This document shows, piece after piece, positions 1,221-5,219 of a stretch of 5,219 bases of DNA; position 1 is the first letter of the stretch; each line of letters opens with the position of its first letter. The notes below the pieces were generated by a model. The model was not told the origin of the DNA. It did not search any database and saw nothing but the letters and a program-made list of their open reading frames with translations. A program made the position numbers and the translations under genes. Source of the DNA: Desulfobulbus sp. (GTDB lineage Bacteria; Desulfobacterota; Desulfobulbia; Desulfobulbales; Desulfobulbaceae); assembly GCA_028684915.1 (NCBI GenBank), contig JAQUEZ010000362.1:1-5219 (forward strand). Direction: 5' to 3'.

Positions 1221-1270
1221 TGGTCGGGGCGGAGTGATTCGAACACTCGACCTCCTGCTCCCAAGGCAGC
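1221..1270 (-). tRNA. 3' half of tRNA-Pro(UGG): truncated copy, probable att site
   Basis: Read on the minus strand, the sequence gives an anticodon arm (1254-1270) with the 7-base loop CTTGGGA and anticodon TGG, a 5-base variable loop (1249-1253), a T arm with a perfect 5-bp stem and loop TTCGAAT (1232-1248), the acceptor 3' strand CGCCCCG (1225-1231), a discriminator A, and an encoded CCA (1221-1223). The D arm and the acceptor 5' strand, which should read CGGGGCG, are missing: the sequence beyond 1270 has neither. Homology fails within the anticodon stem, where the outermost pair is G-G. A tRNA 3' half alone is the classic direct repeat left when an integrase recombines into a tRNA gene. 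The fragment points left and its terminator lies on the left, so the inserted element should extend right, with the intact tRNA-Pro at its far end. A decayed tRNA is the alternative. Confidence 0.85.
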
Positions 1271-1516: not shown

Positions 1517-1609
1517 TGGTTATGGTATGTGAATAAAAAAACTAAATTTCTATATAGTAAATTTCGATCTGAGATTTCCTCGATAATCCGAAATCCACGA
1601 CAAAAATCT

Positions 1610-2437
1610 ATGATTTTCGCCAAACCTCCTTTAGTGGAACTTATTGCAGAACTTCGTTGGGGGCCTCAGCCATCGGTTCCGTCTAGTGGTGGGCCCGGGC
1701 AAGGTGTGCAAAATTTATCGATGCCACTTGCCATGACAAATCGGGTTGAAGAGTGGTTTATGCAGTTCGGTGCCAAAATTTCGGTAGACGGATACACTCG
1801 ATTTGAACGTTTAGTACCAACCGGTTTTCCTTTGATGCCTTTTCAGCCTGTATATCGTTACAGAAAAAATGCGCCTGAAGATGGGACGAGTTTATACCAA
1901 CTTGGGCCAGGTTTATTTTCAGCTAATATTACGCCTCCTTATAAATCATGGGATCAATTTGAACCTATCGTTAAAAATGGAGTGGAAAAAGTACTTCAAA
2001 GTCGGACTGATATAGAAAACAAAATGCCATTTCGCACGGTTCTACTGCGATATATAGACGCTTTTGGTCCTGAATTTTTAAAAGACGAATCATCTTTAGA
2101 TTTTCTTATTACGAAACTTGGATTCAAGATAGAGCTCCCTAAGGTTTTTGACAAATTTGCAAATAGTTCTATTCCCGTTAAAGGGTCTTTGAATTTTGGT
2201 GTTCCTCTAAAAGATAATTTCGTCATGAGTATCAATGTTGGGGAGGGAATTGCGGATGGGAAACAAGCTGTTGTATTAGATACAACAGTCGCAAAAACTA
2301 TTCCCGTTCAGAGTGTATTAGTAGATGTTATGGCAACATTTAACGATGCTCGATCTATTATTCACGAAACATTCATTGAAATTACAAAACCAATCGCAAG
2401 CATAATGGAGCCTATAGAGGAGAAGGGAAATGATTGA
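1610..2437 (+). CDS. TIGR04255 family protein (first gene of three-gene cassette)
   Basis: A 275-residue protein of unknown biochemical activity. The N-terminal PPLVELIAELRW (6-17) is the signature opening of the sporadically distributed TIGR04255 family. The family-like core follows: LYQLGPGLFSANITPPYKSWDQF (95-117 region), LRYIDAF (146-152), and a C-terminal segment with alternating hydrophobic residues (233-265) ending in an acidic/lysine tail. Length is normal for the family. I chose the ATG at 1610 because family members begin a few residues before this signature. An in-frame GTG at 1529 would add 27 basic residues and cannot be excluded, as neither start has a good ribosome site. No signal peptide or membrane segment is seen, so it is probably cytoplasmic. 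The end overlaps the next gene by 8 bases, indicating translational coupling. Codon use is A+T-rich, unlike the helicase. Family membership is fairly sure; function is not known. Confidence 0.82.
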   Translation: MIFAKPPLVELIAELRWGPQPSVPSSGGPGQGVQNLSMPLAMTNRVEEWFMQFGAKISVDGYTRFERLVPTGFPLMPFQPVYRYRKNAPEDGTSLYQLGPGLFSANITPPYKSWDQFEPIVKNGVEKVLQSRTDIENKMPFRTVLLRYIDAFGPEFLKDESSLDFLITKLGFKIELPKVFDKFANSSIPVKGSLNFGVPLKDNFVMSINVGEGIADGKQAVVLDTTVAKTIPVQSVLVDVMATFNDARSIIHETFIEITKPIASIMEPIEEKGND

Positions 2438-3011
2438 ATTCTTTCTGCTTCCACTTTCAGTTTATTCGTTTAGCTCTTGCTTCATTCGGGATGATTCATT
2501 GAGTCATTCCAGCTCTTGTCCAATAAATAGGTCCATTGAACCTCGACTCCACGAATTAAATTTTTCTGATGTTAACAATGTCTTGCAATGGGAAAGACTC
2601 AAGTTAAAAGCTAATGTTTTTTTGTCTCTTGAGGACGATTGGGATGGATATGGCGCGGTCGGAATTGACTCAGTTGTGGTTAATAATTTTTGCCGCATAA
2701 TTGATTTACTTCAGAAAAATAGATGGGTTAAATGTGTTCCTGATATTAACCCAGTTGCTTCTGGAACTATATCTCTTTCCTGGGAATTCAATAACGTTGA
2801 AGCGTACCTCGAAATAGGCAGGACGCGATATTCAGGCTATGTACAAAGTGAAGAACAAGATCCTGTAATGGTAGAAGGAGAGCTCGAGTCCTTTGACGTT
2901 GCTTCATTTTGTCCTTTTTTCGATTACTTGAATTCTAATTTGTTAATCTCAGAACCCACAGCAAGGGTTAAAATCAATGTTTATCCAATAGATGAATTCA
3001 TTCCCGCATGA
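2430..3011 (+). CDS. Hypothetical protein with LEDDWDGYGA motif (second gene of cassette)
   Basis: A 193-residue protein whose function I do not recognise. Its clearest feature is LSLEDDWDGYGA (65-76), a motif I associate with small uncharacterised accessory-region proteins that continue, as here, into a helical stretch (82-97), a VPDINP turn, and a beta-rich G-I-S-L-S-W segment (112-118). The first 17 residues are hydrophobic (FFLLPLSVYSF), followed by a cysteine and a serine-rich linker, but no convincing signal peptidase site is visible. The start is well supported by a purine-rich AGGAGAAGGG ribosome site just upstream. It overlaps the preceding gene by 8 bases and the following gene by 20, so the three are one transcription and translation unit. 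The products may form a complex, which is inference from coupling. It reads intact, without frameshifts. Confidence 0.8.
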   Translation: MIEFFLLPLSVYSFSSCFIRDDSLSHSSSCPINRSIEPRLHELNFSDVNNVLQWERLKLKANVFLSLEDDWDGYGAVGIDSVVVNNFCRIIDLLQKNRWVKCVPDINPVASGTISLSWEFNNVEAYLEIGRTRYSGYVQSEEQDPVMVEGELESFDVASFCPFFDYLNSNLLISEPTARVKINVYPIDEFIPA

Positions 3012-3462
3012 AATAAGTAATAATGAGACAATAGTTCGAGGGATTTGTAGTCCGTATCATATTTCTAGTAACGGAAAATTAAAGCCATCTGCTTTTGATC
3101 CTTCCCCGGGAACTGACGAAGTTTCAGTAATGCGTCATGATTGGATTGGCACCGATGCTTGTCGTAACCGTTCAAAGTTACTTGCTGACCCGGAAAAGAA
3201 TAAAATTTATAGAGGGCTGGCGACATTAACAGCAGAATTAATTCGCAGCACTGGGGCTGAGGTTATTGATTCGCGGAGTTTTTTTTTAGGGCATGCTGAT
3301 ATCAAGCATGGTTTTGTAACGAAAATCGGCGAACCTCTAGCTCCTGATATTCTTCTTGCAATGCGTACACGGAATAAACGTCTCGCAAAAATAGCAAATT
3401 ACTTTTCTGATCCTAATCCTGAATCTATTACTTGGGGAGGAGCGGCGCTTAATTTACCCTAA
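2992..3462 (+). CDS. Hypothetical protein with DEVSVMRHDW and GHADIKHG motifs (third gene of cassette)
   Basis: A 156-residue soluble protein of unknown function. It has blocks that look like conserved family sequence: IVRGICSPYH (14-23), DEVSVMRHDW (42-51), YRGLATLTAELIR (73-85), DSRSFFLGHADIKHG (93-107) and GEPLAPD (113-119), ending in a tryptophan-glycine turn. The clustered His, Asp and Arg residues could form an active or metal site, but no named catalytic motif is recognised. It starts inside the second gene's last codons (20-base overlap) and has no ribosome site of its own, so its translation should depend on the upstream gene. It is the last gene of the cassette, followed by a weak terminator. 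It could be an effector or immunity partner of the other two; nothing in the sequence decides between these. Confidence 0.8.
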   Translation: MNSFPHEISNNETIVRGICSPYHISSNGKLKPSAFDPSPGTDEVSVMRHDWIGTDACRNRSKLLADPEKNKIYRGLATLTAELIRSTGAEVIDSRSFFLGHADIKHGFVTKIGEPLAPDILLAMRTRNKRLAKIANYFSDPNPESITWGGAALNLP

Positions 3463-3479
3463 CAATAACCACGACCTAG

Positions 3480-3520
3480 AAAAAAGAACCATTAATGAAA
3501 ACTTCCGTTTTCTCTTTTTT
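3480..3520 (+). terminator. Weak Rho-independent terminator after the cassette
   Basis: GAAAAC (3497-3502) pairs with GTTTTC (3507-3512) around TTCC, followed by TC and six T residues (3515-3520). An upstream A run (3480-3485) could pair with the T run and lengthen the structure. With only two G-C pairs in the inner stem it is weak, but it lies 34 bases after the last cassette stop codon, where a terminator is expected. Confidence 0.5.
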
Positions 3521-3536
3521 AGTTATCCCGCCTCAG

Positions 3537-3599
3537 CATTTCATCATTCCTTTTTAGTGCATTTCATCCATTCCCCCTCGGCCTTCAATAATTCCCCCT
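3537..3599. repeat. Imperfect direct repeats in pyrimidine-rich gap
   Basis: CATTTCATCATTCC (3537-3550) recurs as CATTTCATCCATTCC (3560-3574), and ATTCCCCCT occurs at 3570-3578 and 3591-3599. The copies are 21 to 23 bases apart. They lie in the gap between two converging genes, 3463-3658, which otherwise holds no supportable gene. Their role is unknown; they could be protein-binding repeats or remains of slippage in pyrimidine-rich DNA. Confidence 0.4.
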
Positions 3600-3658
3600 T
3601 TTCTACATCGTTTATTCAACGTAATATTTGTAATTATTTAACTTTACTTTATATTTTA

Positions 3659-4111
3659 TTAAGCTACCTTACGAGTCGTAGTGGTGTCCTCTCTCGTTTC
3701 TGTTTCTTCCTTTGCTTCCTTCCATTTCTTAAATTCCTGGAACGTTTTTTCGAATTCCACCTCGAACCAAATTTCTCGTTTACGATCTCGCCTAACCATC
3801 TCGGTTAACCATTCCTCCGCTTCATCCAGAATCTCGAATTTTCTTTTTTGGTTTTCTTTCTCAGCTTTTACTATGATTATTTTTTCATCATTTTTTTTCT
3901 CGTAAAACAAGAGATTTAAATCCATTTTCCTTTTTACTGCCTCTGCAAAAAGAGTTTGGACTAACGTTCCTCTTCTTTTTCTGTTAGCCATTTCCTCTGG
4001 AATTATTCCAATAATTTCAGCTACTTCTTTGTCTTGCTTCACGCCTAATAACTTTTTAAACATATCCAACACGGTTTTTTGATATTCTTTTTCTGTTTTA
4101 TCAATTGACAT
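3659..4111 (-). CDS. CI-type phage repressor-like helix-turn-helix regulator
   Basis: A 150-residue DNA-binding protein. Residues about 15-70 match the N-terminal domain pattern of bacteriophage CI repressors: a leading helix (MFKKLLGV), a helix-turn-helix with DKEVAEIIGI (27-36) and the recognition segment PEEMANRKRRG (38-48), then the closing LFAEAVKRKMDLNLLFYEK. The usual tryptophan before KRRG is replaced by arginine. The rest (70-150) is highly charged, rich in Lys and Glu, probably helical, and ends in a threonine-rich tail. There is no LexA-type peptidase domain, so RecA-triggered self-cleavage is not expected; release would need an antirepressor or another signal. It is divergent from the small-gene operon and presumably controls it through the intervening operators. 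There is no Shine-Dalgarno sequence before the ATG, and the -35 box of the opposing promoter overlaps the first codons. Its strong A+T bias is consistent with acquisition by transfer. Confidence 0.82.
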   Translation of the reverse strand: MSIDKTEKEYQKTVLDMFKKLLGVKQDKEVAEIIGIIPEEMANRKRRGTLVQTLFAEAVKRKMDLNLLFYEKKNDEKIIIVKAEKENQKRKFEILDEAEEWLTEMVRRDRKREIWFEVEFEKTFQEFKKWKEAKEETETREDTTTTRKVA

Positions 4112-4132
4112 AACTGTTATATTATGTAAGAT
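4105..4132 (+). promoter_or_regulatory. Promoter for the small-gene operon
   Basis: A perfect -35 box TTGACA (4105-4110), a 16-base spacer and TAAGAT (4127-4132, four of six consensus bases) predict a start near 4139, about 67 bases before the first operon gene. The -35 box overlaps the repressor's start codon, and candidate operators cover the spacer and the -10/start region. Repressor binding would therefore block RNA polymerase. Confidence 0.65.
4110..4120. promoter_or_regulatory. Candidate operator 1, ATAAC-T-GTTAT
   Basis: A perfect 11-bp palindrome between the -35 and -10 boxes of the rightward promoter, overlapping the repressor's start codon. The same half-sites reappear in operator 2, which suggests a shared binding protein, most likely the adjacent CI-type regulator (inference). 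Confidence 0.5.
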
Positions 4133-4146
4133 AACTTAAAGGTTAT
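4131..4146. promoter_or_regulatory. Candidate operator 2, ATAAC-TTAAAG-GTTAT
   Basis: The inverted half-sites ATAAC (4131-4135) and GTTAT (4142-4146) are separated by 6 bases, giving a 16-bp site of the size a repressor dimer usually covers. It overlaps the rightward -10 box and both predicted transcription starts. Half-sites match operator 1, but the spacing differs, so the two may bind differently. Confidence 0.55.
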
Positions 4147-4154
4147 TTATTTTA

Positions 4155-4163
4155 ATTATACCA
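4155..4163 (-). promoter_or_regulatory. Extended -10 promoter of the repressor gene
   Basis: On the minus strand the sequence reads TGGTATAAT: a perfect TATAAT with the TG extension that reduces the need for a -35 box (none good is seen). The predicted start near 4147 gives a leader of about 36 bases. It faces the rightward promoter, with starts about 8 bases apart. Confidence 0.6.
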
Positions 4164-4206
4164 CACAGCTACCAAGACAGGAAAACCCAAGAGGCCGAGG
4201 CCCATC

Positions 4207-4611
4207 ATGCCAGAAACCAAATTATGCATACAAACAAGCCACAACCCTACATGCGGCTCTTCCGTTGAATTTTGCCCTAAGTGCCTTAACCTGCTCTCTT
4301 TCTCCGGTATGCAGCAAACCGACCGTGGTTTTCAGCTCGTGTACGATTGCCCCGAATGTGAAAGTTCTTTCACGTATGCCCCTGTCACCCAAATGCAGCT
4401 TTTTGAAGTCCTCAGAGATACGACCGAGCCGCAAATCTTCTGCGGTATTAATCCATTAATCGACCACATATCCGAGATTGATAACGTGTCTAAGTCCCAC
4501 CTTATCAACGAGCTGCAGCTTTTAAGACGTGCCTTGGATCGCCTTCGTCATGAGCGCCAATTTTTAGACGAGTCCGATATTGATTCCTTCCTCGATAGAC
4601 TTCAAGGGTGA
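4207..4611 (+). CDS. C4 zinc-ribbon protein, first gene of repressed small-gene operon
   Basis: A 134-residue protein not recognised as a named family. The N-terminal half is a zinc ribbon: CPKC (23-26) and CPEC (48-51), spaced C-x2-C-x21-C-x2-C, with aromatic residues between them as in such folds. Extra cysteines at 7, 16 and 79 may be structural. The C-terminal half (about 85-132) is rich in leucine, acidic and arginine residues and probably forms a helical hairpin or dimerisation helix (INELQLLRRALDRLRHERQFL region). GAGG at 4197-4200, six bases before the ATG, serves as the ribosome site. It is the first gene after the repressor-controlled promoter, a typical place for an early phage regulator or replication factor. 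Nucleic-acid or protein binding is inferred from the fold only. Confidence 0.75.
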   Translation: MPETKLCIQTSHNPTCGSSVEFCPKCLNLLSFSGMQQTDRGFQLVYDCPECESSFTYAPVTQMQLFEVLRDTTEPQIFCGINPLIDHISEIDNVSKSHLINELQLLRRALDRLRHERQFLDESDIDSFLDRLQG

Positions 4612-4617
4612 GTCAAA

Positions 4618-4743
4618 ATGACACTTTCCGACCCTATGACTCCTTTTAGCATCTTCATCATCTGGGTAGGCTTCGGCCTTCTCATTTGCGTCGGCTTATT
4701 ACTCAAGTACCTGGATGCAAAAGACGAAAAACGGCACGAATAA
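4618..4743 (+). CDS. Small single-pass membrane protein (41 residues)
   Basis: The translation starts MTLSDPMTPFS, continues with about 19 hydrophobic residues (IFIIWVGFGLLICVGLLL, 12-29), and ends with a charged tail KYLDAKDEKRHE. One transmembrane helix with a charged C-terminal tail is evident. The gene starts 6 bases after the previous stop codon with a GGGTGAG ribosome site, and ends 7 bases before the next ATG, so it fits the operon exactly. Small acidic/hydrophobic/charged proteins of this size occur in filamentous phages as coat or minor virion proteins, but holin-like or toxin-like roles are equally possible. There is no cleavable signal. Confidence 0.65.
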   Translation: MTLSDPMTPFSIFIIWVGFGLLICVGLLLKYLDAKDEKRHE

Positions 4744-4750
4744 AAGACCA

Positions 4751-4963
4751 ATGAAAAACCCAACCCGCCCCAACACCTCAGAGATAACCTGCCACAAATG
4801 CGGCAGACCGCTTGAAGTGACCACCGTCGAAACCACCGACGGCCACTATCAAGACTTTCTCCAGTGTTGGCATTGTTTCACCAGCACACCGGGGCGGAAA
4901 ATCATGCGTATACCACTGCACACTTACAAACAGCCAGAACTCAACGTACCAGCGAACCTCTAA
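4751..4963 (+). CDS. Small C4 zinc-ribbon protein (70 residues)
   Basis: CHKC (14-17) and CWHC (39-42) form a zinc ribbon with the same C-x2-C-x21-C-x2-C spacing as the larger protein two genes upstream. Histidines inside both knuckles could also take part. The basic N-terminus and proline-rich tail have no recognised family. I chose the ATG at 4751; an in-frame ATG at 4715 would add 12 residues but overlap the membrane-protein gene by 29 bases. Neither start has a strong ribosome site. It is probably translated by coupling, being 7 bases after the previous stop. A nucleic-acid-binding accessory role is plausible but unproven. Confidence 0.7.
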   Translation: MKNPTRPNTSEITCHKCGRPLEVTTVETTDGHYQDFLQCWHCFTSTPGRKIMRIPLHTYKQPELNVPANL

Positions 4964-4980
4964 CGCCTCCAGGAAACGAA

Positions 4981-5142
4981 ATGATCCTCACATCTTACGG
5001 TATACCCGGCAAAGGCAAAACTAACGAAGCGACCCGCAACCTTGTCCAAAAAATCATAAAGGAACGTCAGGCCCCAAACAAAGCACCATCCAAACATATA
5101 GACCATCAACCCCCAAAAAATCCAAGCAAAAACCAGGAGTAA
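4981..5142 (+). CDS. 53-residue protein with Walker A motif (Zot-like N-terminus)
   Basis: The N-terminus runs MILTSYGIPGKGKT: a short beta strand followed by GIPGKGKT (7-14), a perfect G-x4-GKT nucleotide-binding loop, then one helix (15-29) and a Pro/Lys-rich tail (31-53). The opening resembles that of Zot-type assembly ATPases of filamentous phages, but the rest of the domain, including Walker B, is absent, so it cannot be a full ATPase by itself. It may be a truncated gene, a decoy or regulatory peptide, or a chance resemblance. AGGA lies 8 bases before the ATG, giving a convincing start. It is 17 bases after the previous gene and 5 before the next. Confidence 0.6.
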   Translation: MILTSYGIPGKGKTNEATRNLVQKIIKERQAPNKAPSKHIDHQPPKNPSKNQE

Positions 5143-5147
5143 CCACC

Positions 5148-5219
5148 ATGCCCAACGAGAAAGAAATCACAAACGCCAACAGCCTTCCCGCTTTCATCAT
5201 CTCGGGCCGTATCGAGTCC
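5148..5219 (+). CDS. N-terminus of a further operon gene (3' end outside window)
   Basis: The ATG at 5148 has AGGAG about 8 bases upstream and follows the preceding stop codon by 5 bases. Twenty-four codons are visible (MPNEKEITNANSLPAFIISGRIES) and remain open at the right edge. Too little is present to assign a family. Its position in the operon suggests a phage early gene, such as a DNA-binding or replication protein, which is inference only. Confidence 0.6.
   Translation, partial: MPNEKEITNANSLPAFIISGRIES

Follow-up and report, generated by a model that had tools for sequence, protein, structure and literature searches.

Three tightly coupled genes near a probable attachment site in a Desulfobulbus genome raise the question of what they do, and whether they do it together. 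They lie on contig JAQUEZ010000362.1, of which we analysed a stretch of 5,219 nt; this whole stretch is referred to as the window, and coordinates are those of the window unless another locus is named. The first gene encodes a member of TIGR04255, a curated family with no assigned function. The reading that we favour, with a probability of roughly 0.6, is of a tripartite toxin-antitoxin module that travels as cargo on a prophage of filamentous type inserted at a tRNA-Pro; taken alone, the toxin-antitoxin nature of the cassette is likely. The observations behind this reading are the gene order, the coupling of the genes, their conservation and co-divergence, the prophage slot that they occupy, and the presence of toxins as the few recognisable third genes of related operons. 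It would supply a first likely role for TIGR04255.

The three-gene cassette

The cassette consists of three open reading frames (ORFs), with isoelectric points (pI) given where they are informative:

1610..2437, + strand: ORF1, TIGR04255 protein of 275 amino acids, proposed chaperone-like partner dedicated to the antitoxin (NCBIfam E 3.7e-20, homologue alignment, AF2 model)
2430..3011, + strand: ORF2, 193 amino acids, pI 4.4, proposed antitoxin (33-row alignment, match to the C-terminal part of PADLOC PDC-M32A, composition test, pI)
2992..3462, + strand: ORF3, 156 amino acids, pI 8.6, proposed toxin with a predicted ADP-ribosyltransferase-like fold

A first-pass annotation of the window had described a coupled unit led by a TIGR04255 protein, and most of this description holds. 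Same-strand ORFs lie at 1529-2437, 2430-3011 and 2992-3462, the 8- and 20-base overlaps are present, and the cassette is A+T-rich, with a GC content of 0.395 (1610-3462) against 0.548 to the left (1-1220) and 0.423 to the right (3463-5219). The motifs LEDDWDGYGA, DEVSVMRHDW and GHADIKHG are all present and fall inside conserved stretches. The family assignment of ORF1 is firm, with a score of 72.8 bits where the cut-off is 30 and a match spanning positions 2-245 of the 252 in the model. The GTG at 1529 is probably the wrong start for ORF1, and the ATG at 1610 is likelier, since the public protein has 275 residues and homologues start at or near this position.

Conservation of the cassette

Protein searches returned 141 proteins for ORF1, 33 for ORF2 and 51 for ORF3, the window's own entry included in each count. 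When genome contigs were scanned with the ORF3 alignment, four loci were recovered, in a gammaproteobacterial metagenome-assembled genome, Variovorax (where the third-gene match ends at residue 105), Pandoraea and Burkholderia multivorans, and all four keep the order TIGR04255, WDGYG-domain gene, third gene. A fifth cassette lies between the lysis genes and the terminase of a Pantoea prophage on a plasmid; further ones are present in viral contigs (L005, L007/L008, L080-L083, L084 and L085), and two more, at L014 and L022, have a divergent TIGR04255 gene. The co-occurrence of the trio in other genomes thus bears out the claim of a conserved unit, and because the triplet recurs with its order kept, its arrangement in the window is not due to chance.

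The surroundings of these cassettes vary. That at L004 adjoins an integrase gene identified with PHROGs, and by eye those at L080-L083 and L085 adjoin integrase-like genes, while those at L005 and L084 follow tail genes, the cassette at L084 being succeeded by a umuC-like gene. No phage genes were recognised by eye around the cassette at L002. L084 and L109 share their middle and third genes. Comparison of distance matrices for 14 cassettes gave a correlation of 0.81 between ORF2 and ORF3, and of 0.57 and 0.59 between ORF1 and either of these (each p 2e-4). At three loci (L010, L013 and L021, around 4300-5690) a WDGYG gene and, by eye, an ORF3-like gene are preceded by a different small first gene of 126-154 codons, so that pairs of the ORF2/ORF3 type may also travel without TIGR04255.

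TIGR04255 operons and their third genes

TIGR04255 is found in 35 of 369 genomes sampled from the class of a Pandoraea genome and in 30 of 398 sampled from its phylum, with some overlap between the two samples. A clustering of the family near tyrosine integrases, to which the first-pass annotation had looked for support, was not visible by eye among the matches listed. None of the open-licence papers searched mentions TIGR04255, supplements and other journals being outside the scope of this search.

We parsed 86 loci. The two family searches contributed 72 of them (71 places, as L057 and L066 are one), and the remaining 14 were selected for carrying the cassette; G603 C55 and G472 C115, both matches of the phylum search, were left out, and G003 was entered as L003. 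The automatic parser takes the longest ORF starting from 35 bases before to 120 bases after the previous stop; under this rule some of the parsed reading frames could be spurious, and any count of gaps is conditional on it. Two tandem downstream ORFs on the same strand are present at 63 of the 71 places (38/42 plus 25/29), those failing being L029, L039, L057/L066, L067, L094, L102, L107 and L112, and at all 14 of the loci selected for the cassette. With these 14 added and nine loci dropped, gaps of 30 bases or fewer separate the first and second genes in 73 of 76 cases and the second and third in 70 of 74. The conservation count drew on 82 of the 86 loci (without L064, L067, L107 and L112). 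WDGYG profile matches occur beside 12 of 43 class-sample places, the known Pandoraea locus counted. TIGR04255 leads the trio, as had been claimed, but is not confined to it, and precedes other pairs of middle and third genes, some with known toxins.

Among 76 of the 78 third genes (without L035 and L100), those with Pfam matches at E of 0.01 or below are two PIN proteins (best 5.5e-9), a YhaV (6.8e-46), a PemK/MazF (1.1e-18) and, marginally, a Phage_tail_S (0.0085); the other 71 have no match. The confident matches, as judged from these profiles, are all to toxins. The third gene of L045, kept out of the set because its parse is doubtful, matches PIN_3 (E 2.2e-6). A toxin-antidote function, which the earlier annotation had guessed at as a 'toxin-immunity set', has accordingly become the best reading, the recognisable third genes elsewhere being toxins. 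Of the 76 middle genes, 73 were scanned (without L035, L084 and L102); HTH_23 was matched in five and HTH_3 in four, with weak E-values. Apart from the WDGYG genes, middle genes match such HTH families or nothing.

The strongest indication of an antitoxin in the middle position and a toxin in the third comes from L042 (1483-3091), where TIGR04255 is followed by a PrlF-like gene and a full YhaV toxin, PrlF being the antitoxin of YhaV. The match of the PrlF-like protein is confined to the C-terminal half of the model (46-90 of 99) and is weak, with E 0.0058 and, in NCBIfam, E 0.0026, neither of which reaches the cut-off. Where PrlF has its N-terminal half, this protein has instead a tail of 84 residues that includes a hydrophobic stretch. 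In the operon with the PemK/MazF toxin (L091, 2234-2858), the middle gene encodes 95 amino acids and has no assigned family.

Two other groups of third genes were noted. Large unassigned families at L028, L032, L043, L059, L090 and other loci have a motif of the QGD...CD type, and profile comparison links two groups among them (87%, E 4e-6). Those at L029, L031, L068, L087 and L088 have HVGI...LTCATF motifs and by eye look like papain-like peptidases, with no Pfam match.

Predicted properties of the ORF2 and ORF3 proteins

Neither ORF2 nor ORF3 matches a family in Pfam, NCBIfam or PHROGs (one ORF2 match at E 0.3 was disregarded). The 33-row alignment divides ORF2 into a variable, charge-poor N-terminus (about residues 1-45) and the WDGYG domain. 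This composition recurs among middle genes of TIGR04255 operons, whose N-terminal 45 residues are 17% charged compared to 23% in the remaining protein (50 genes, p 8e-7); the N-termini of third genes reach 29% (49 pairs, p 4e-8). Related loci are not independent in either comparison. The test kept 50 of 57 genes, leaving out L029, L031, L045, L057, L064, L066 and L067, and L004 was corrected by hand.

A profile comparison of ORF3 with PDB sequences gave no match, and PADLOC none up to an E of 1. The view that the cassette has no known effector domain stands at the level of sequence, but the structure model points to an ART-like fold: the best matches to a confident ORF3 model are ADP-ribosyltransferase (ART) folds, of the KptA/Tpt1 and HopF types. 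R16 is conserved in 13 of 14 sequences, and S45, R48 and H101 in all 14. We propose that ORF3 is an ART-fold enzyme, with the fold predicted from the model and the activity and target inferred.

Prophage context

Two features flank the cassette:

1221..1267, - strand: 47 nt from the 3' end of a tRNA-Pro-like sequence, probably what remains of an attachment site and marks the boundary of the element (anticodon UGG and identity by eye)
3659..4111, - strand: phage-type repressor beside the cargo slot (phrog_4 E 6.2e-4; 30% identity to the L115 repressor)

The tRNA-Pro-like stretch was not called by ARAGORN or Rfam. The same 47 nt are identical in L115, where about 100 bases beyond them also recur and the DNA on both sides is homologous. 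L115 reads as a filamentous prophage because it encodes Zot (8.1e-50), a ssDNA-binding protein (3.6e-8) and an integrase (2.8e-55). The att site that had been annotated is supported by this recurrence, although what is present is only the 3' part of a tRNA-Pro-like sequence; the annotated repressor, for which PHROGs support is weak, has its relative at the same place in L115 (E 6e-15). Between att and repressor L115 has two other genes (2242-3929), matching phrog_15597 and phrog_18577, the latter with additional weaker metallo-protease matches, and from this one comparison the slot appears to be an exchangeable cargo site. Because L115 shares the att junction and a related repressor with different cargo between them, the interpretation of the cassette as prophage cargo is well supported by sequence comparison. 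The element earlier described as an apparent 'tRNA-integrated island' looks like a filamentous prophage.

The window ends before any diagnostic phage gene. At its right end (5148-5219) is the truncated start of an ORF resembling by eye the L115 ssDNA-binding protein, a hint that the element to the right is a filamentous prophage. To the left of the att remnant, in the higher-GC DNA, positions 3-1046 encode the C-terminal part of a ResIII-type helicase, probably on the host side.

Proposed mechanism and alternatives

ORF3 would be the toxin, an ART-fold enzyme acting intracellularly, and would be restrained by the acidic WDGYG domain of ORF2. The charge-poor N-terminal tail may render ORF2 unstable alone, and ORF1 would bind this tail and keep the antitoxin working, in the manner of SecB-type chaperones. 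Such a tail-binding role for ORF1 has a little under an even chance of being correct. We speculate that titration or loss of ORF1, upon infection for instance, would make ORF2 fail and let ORF3 halt growth, protecting the prophage or lysogen; an anti-phage role of the cassette is plausible.

The same pair could be accompanied by a DNA-binding regulator rather than a tail-binding partner, as in the omega-epsilon-zeta and PaaR-PaaA-ParE systems, where the third component has this function. The AF2 model of ORF1 (pLDDT 90.3) has a TATA-binding protein as its top Foldseek match (E 6.9e-4), and a separate regulator could compensate for the missing N-terminal half of the PrlF-like protein at L042. 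TIGR04255 proteins are acidic, however (median pI 5.56, n=74; 5.29 for ORF1), and several middle genes beside them already hold the helix-turn-helix (HTH) domains noted above, such that we consider a regulator unlikely. A three-part anti-phage effector, in which TIGR04255 and the WDGYG protein have a sensing or delivery role while ORF3 acts by modifying a phage target, with no self-toxicity, would suit the prophage cargo positions and the resemblance of ORF2 and the L056 third gene to the PADLOC candidate PDC-M32; it is rather unlikely given that recognisable third genes belong to type II toxin families and that one middle gene is PrlF-like.

Two further explanations seem very improbable. ORF3 might be a harmless enzyme of the KptA/Tpt1 kind (RNA 2'-phosphotransferase) in an RNA-repair or metabolic operon, as its predicted fold would allow, but the match takes in a single domain of KptA/Tpt1, in the C-terminal part at about residues 85-180, and the operon mates and sporadic, partly prophage-borne distribution are unlike those of housekeeping genes. 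Equally, the genes could be phage morons with a separate role in lysogeny control or a virion trait, which would fit their occurrence in both tailed and filamentous prophages; against this are the cassette at L002 and the association of TIGR04255 with known toxins.

A broader and more tentative proposal, to which we give somewhat less than even odds, is that TIGR04255 is a new, SecB-unrelated class of dedicated antitoxin partners. It would define a modular tripartite family in which each TIGR04255 protein binds a low-charge N-terminal tail carried by otherwise unrelated antitoxins (WDGYG, HTH, PrlF-like and others) and so gates toxins that are likewise unrelated (ART-fold, PIN, YhaV, MazF and several unassigned). 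Prophages would be one vehicle, and phage infection would be the likely trigger. Should many toxin-antitoxin pairs have TIGR04255 as their shared partner, a test of one operon would suggest the function of the family, dozens of third genes without a family would become toxin candidates, and the logic of chaperone-addicted toxin-antitoxin systems would have arisen on a second protein fold.

Relationship to known systems

Classical type II toxin-antitoxin pairs are two-gene systems. PrlF-YhaV, VapBC-type PIN and PemIK/MazEF toxins fill the third position in a few other TIGR04255 operons, whereas the toxin candidate in the window has a predicted ART fold.

The closest parallel is with toxin-antitoxin-chaperone (TAC) systems such as M. 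tuberculosis HigB1-HigA1-SecB(TA) and E. coli CmdTAC, which likewise have three linked genes and an antitoxin with an extra tail. As described in PMC5105189, the SecB-like chaperone binds a transferable C-terminal tail of the antitoxin, the ChAD, which still functioned on reporter proteins when moved to the N-terminus, and the chaperone occurs with HigA, MqsA and HicB antitoxins; pairing of a third protein with several toxin-antitoxin families is thus a shared property. CmdT is described as an ART, as proposed for ORF3, and is freed once a phage capsid protein displaces the antitoxin from the chaperone (PMC11618068). The logic proposed for the cassette is that of TAC systems; the two differ in that the first gene of the cassette is a TIGR04255 member and not SecB-like on present evidence, and in that the candidate tail of ORF2 is predicted to be N-terminal, in contrast to the C-terminal ChAD as reported. 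Fold searches with the ORF1 model listed non-SecB folds and nothing pointing to a SecB chaperone, although listings of this kind are no ground for excluding a family.

PADLOC already catalogues, as its candidate PDC-M32, a pair that is related to ORF2 and ORF3 but has another first domain; PDC-M32 is listed for S. meliloti prophages in the account of PMC12429752. The C-terminal part of PDC-M32A (about 240-361) is a WDGYG domain, to which ORF2 has a weak match (positions 240-341, E 4.1e-4), and PDC-M32B matches the L056 third gene (E 8.4e-4). PDC-M32A is about 375 residues long with its own N-terminal domain, however, of which ORF2 covers 240-341 only; ORF3 does not match PDC-M32B and ORF1 has no PADLOC match. 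At L071 (minus strand) a PDC-M32A gene has the WDGYG-type end fused to an N-terminal domain unrelated to TIGR04255, and the gene that follows resembles PDC-M32B by eye.
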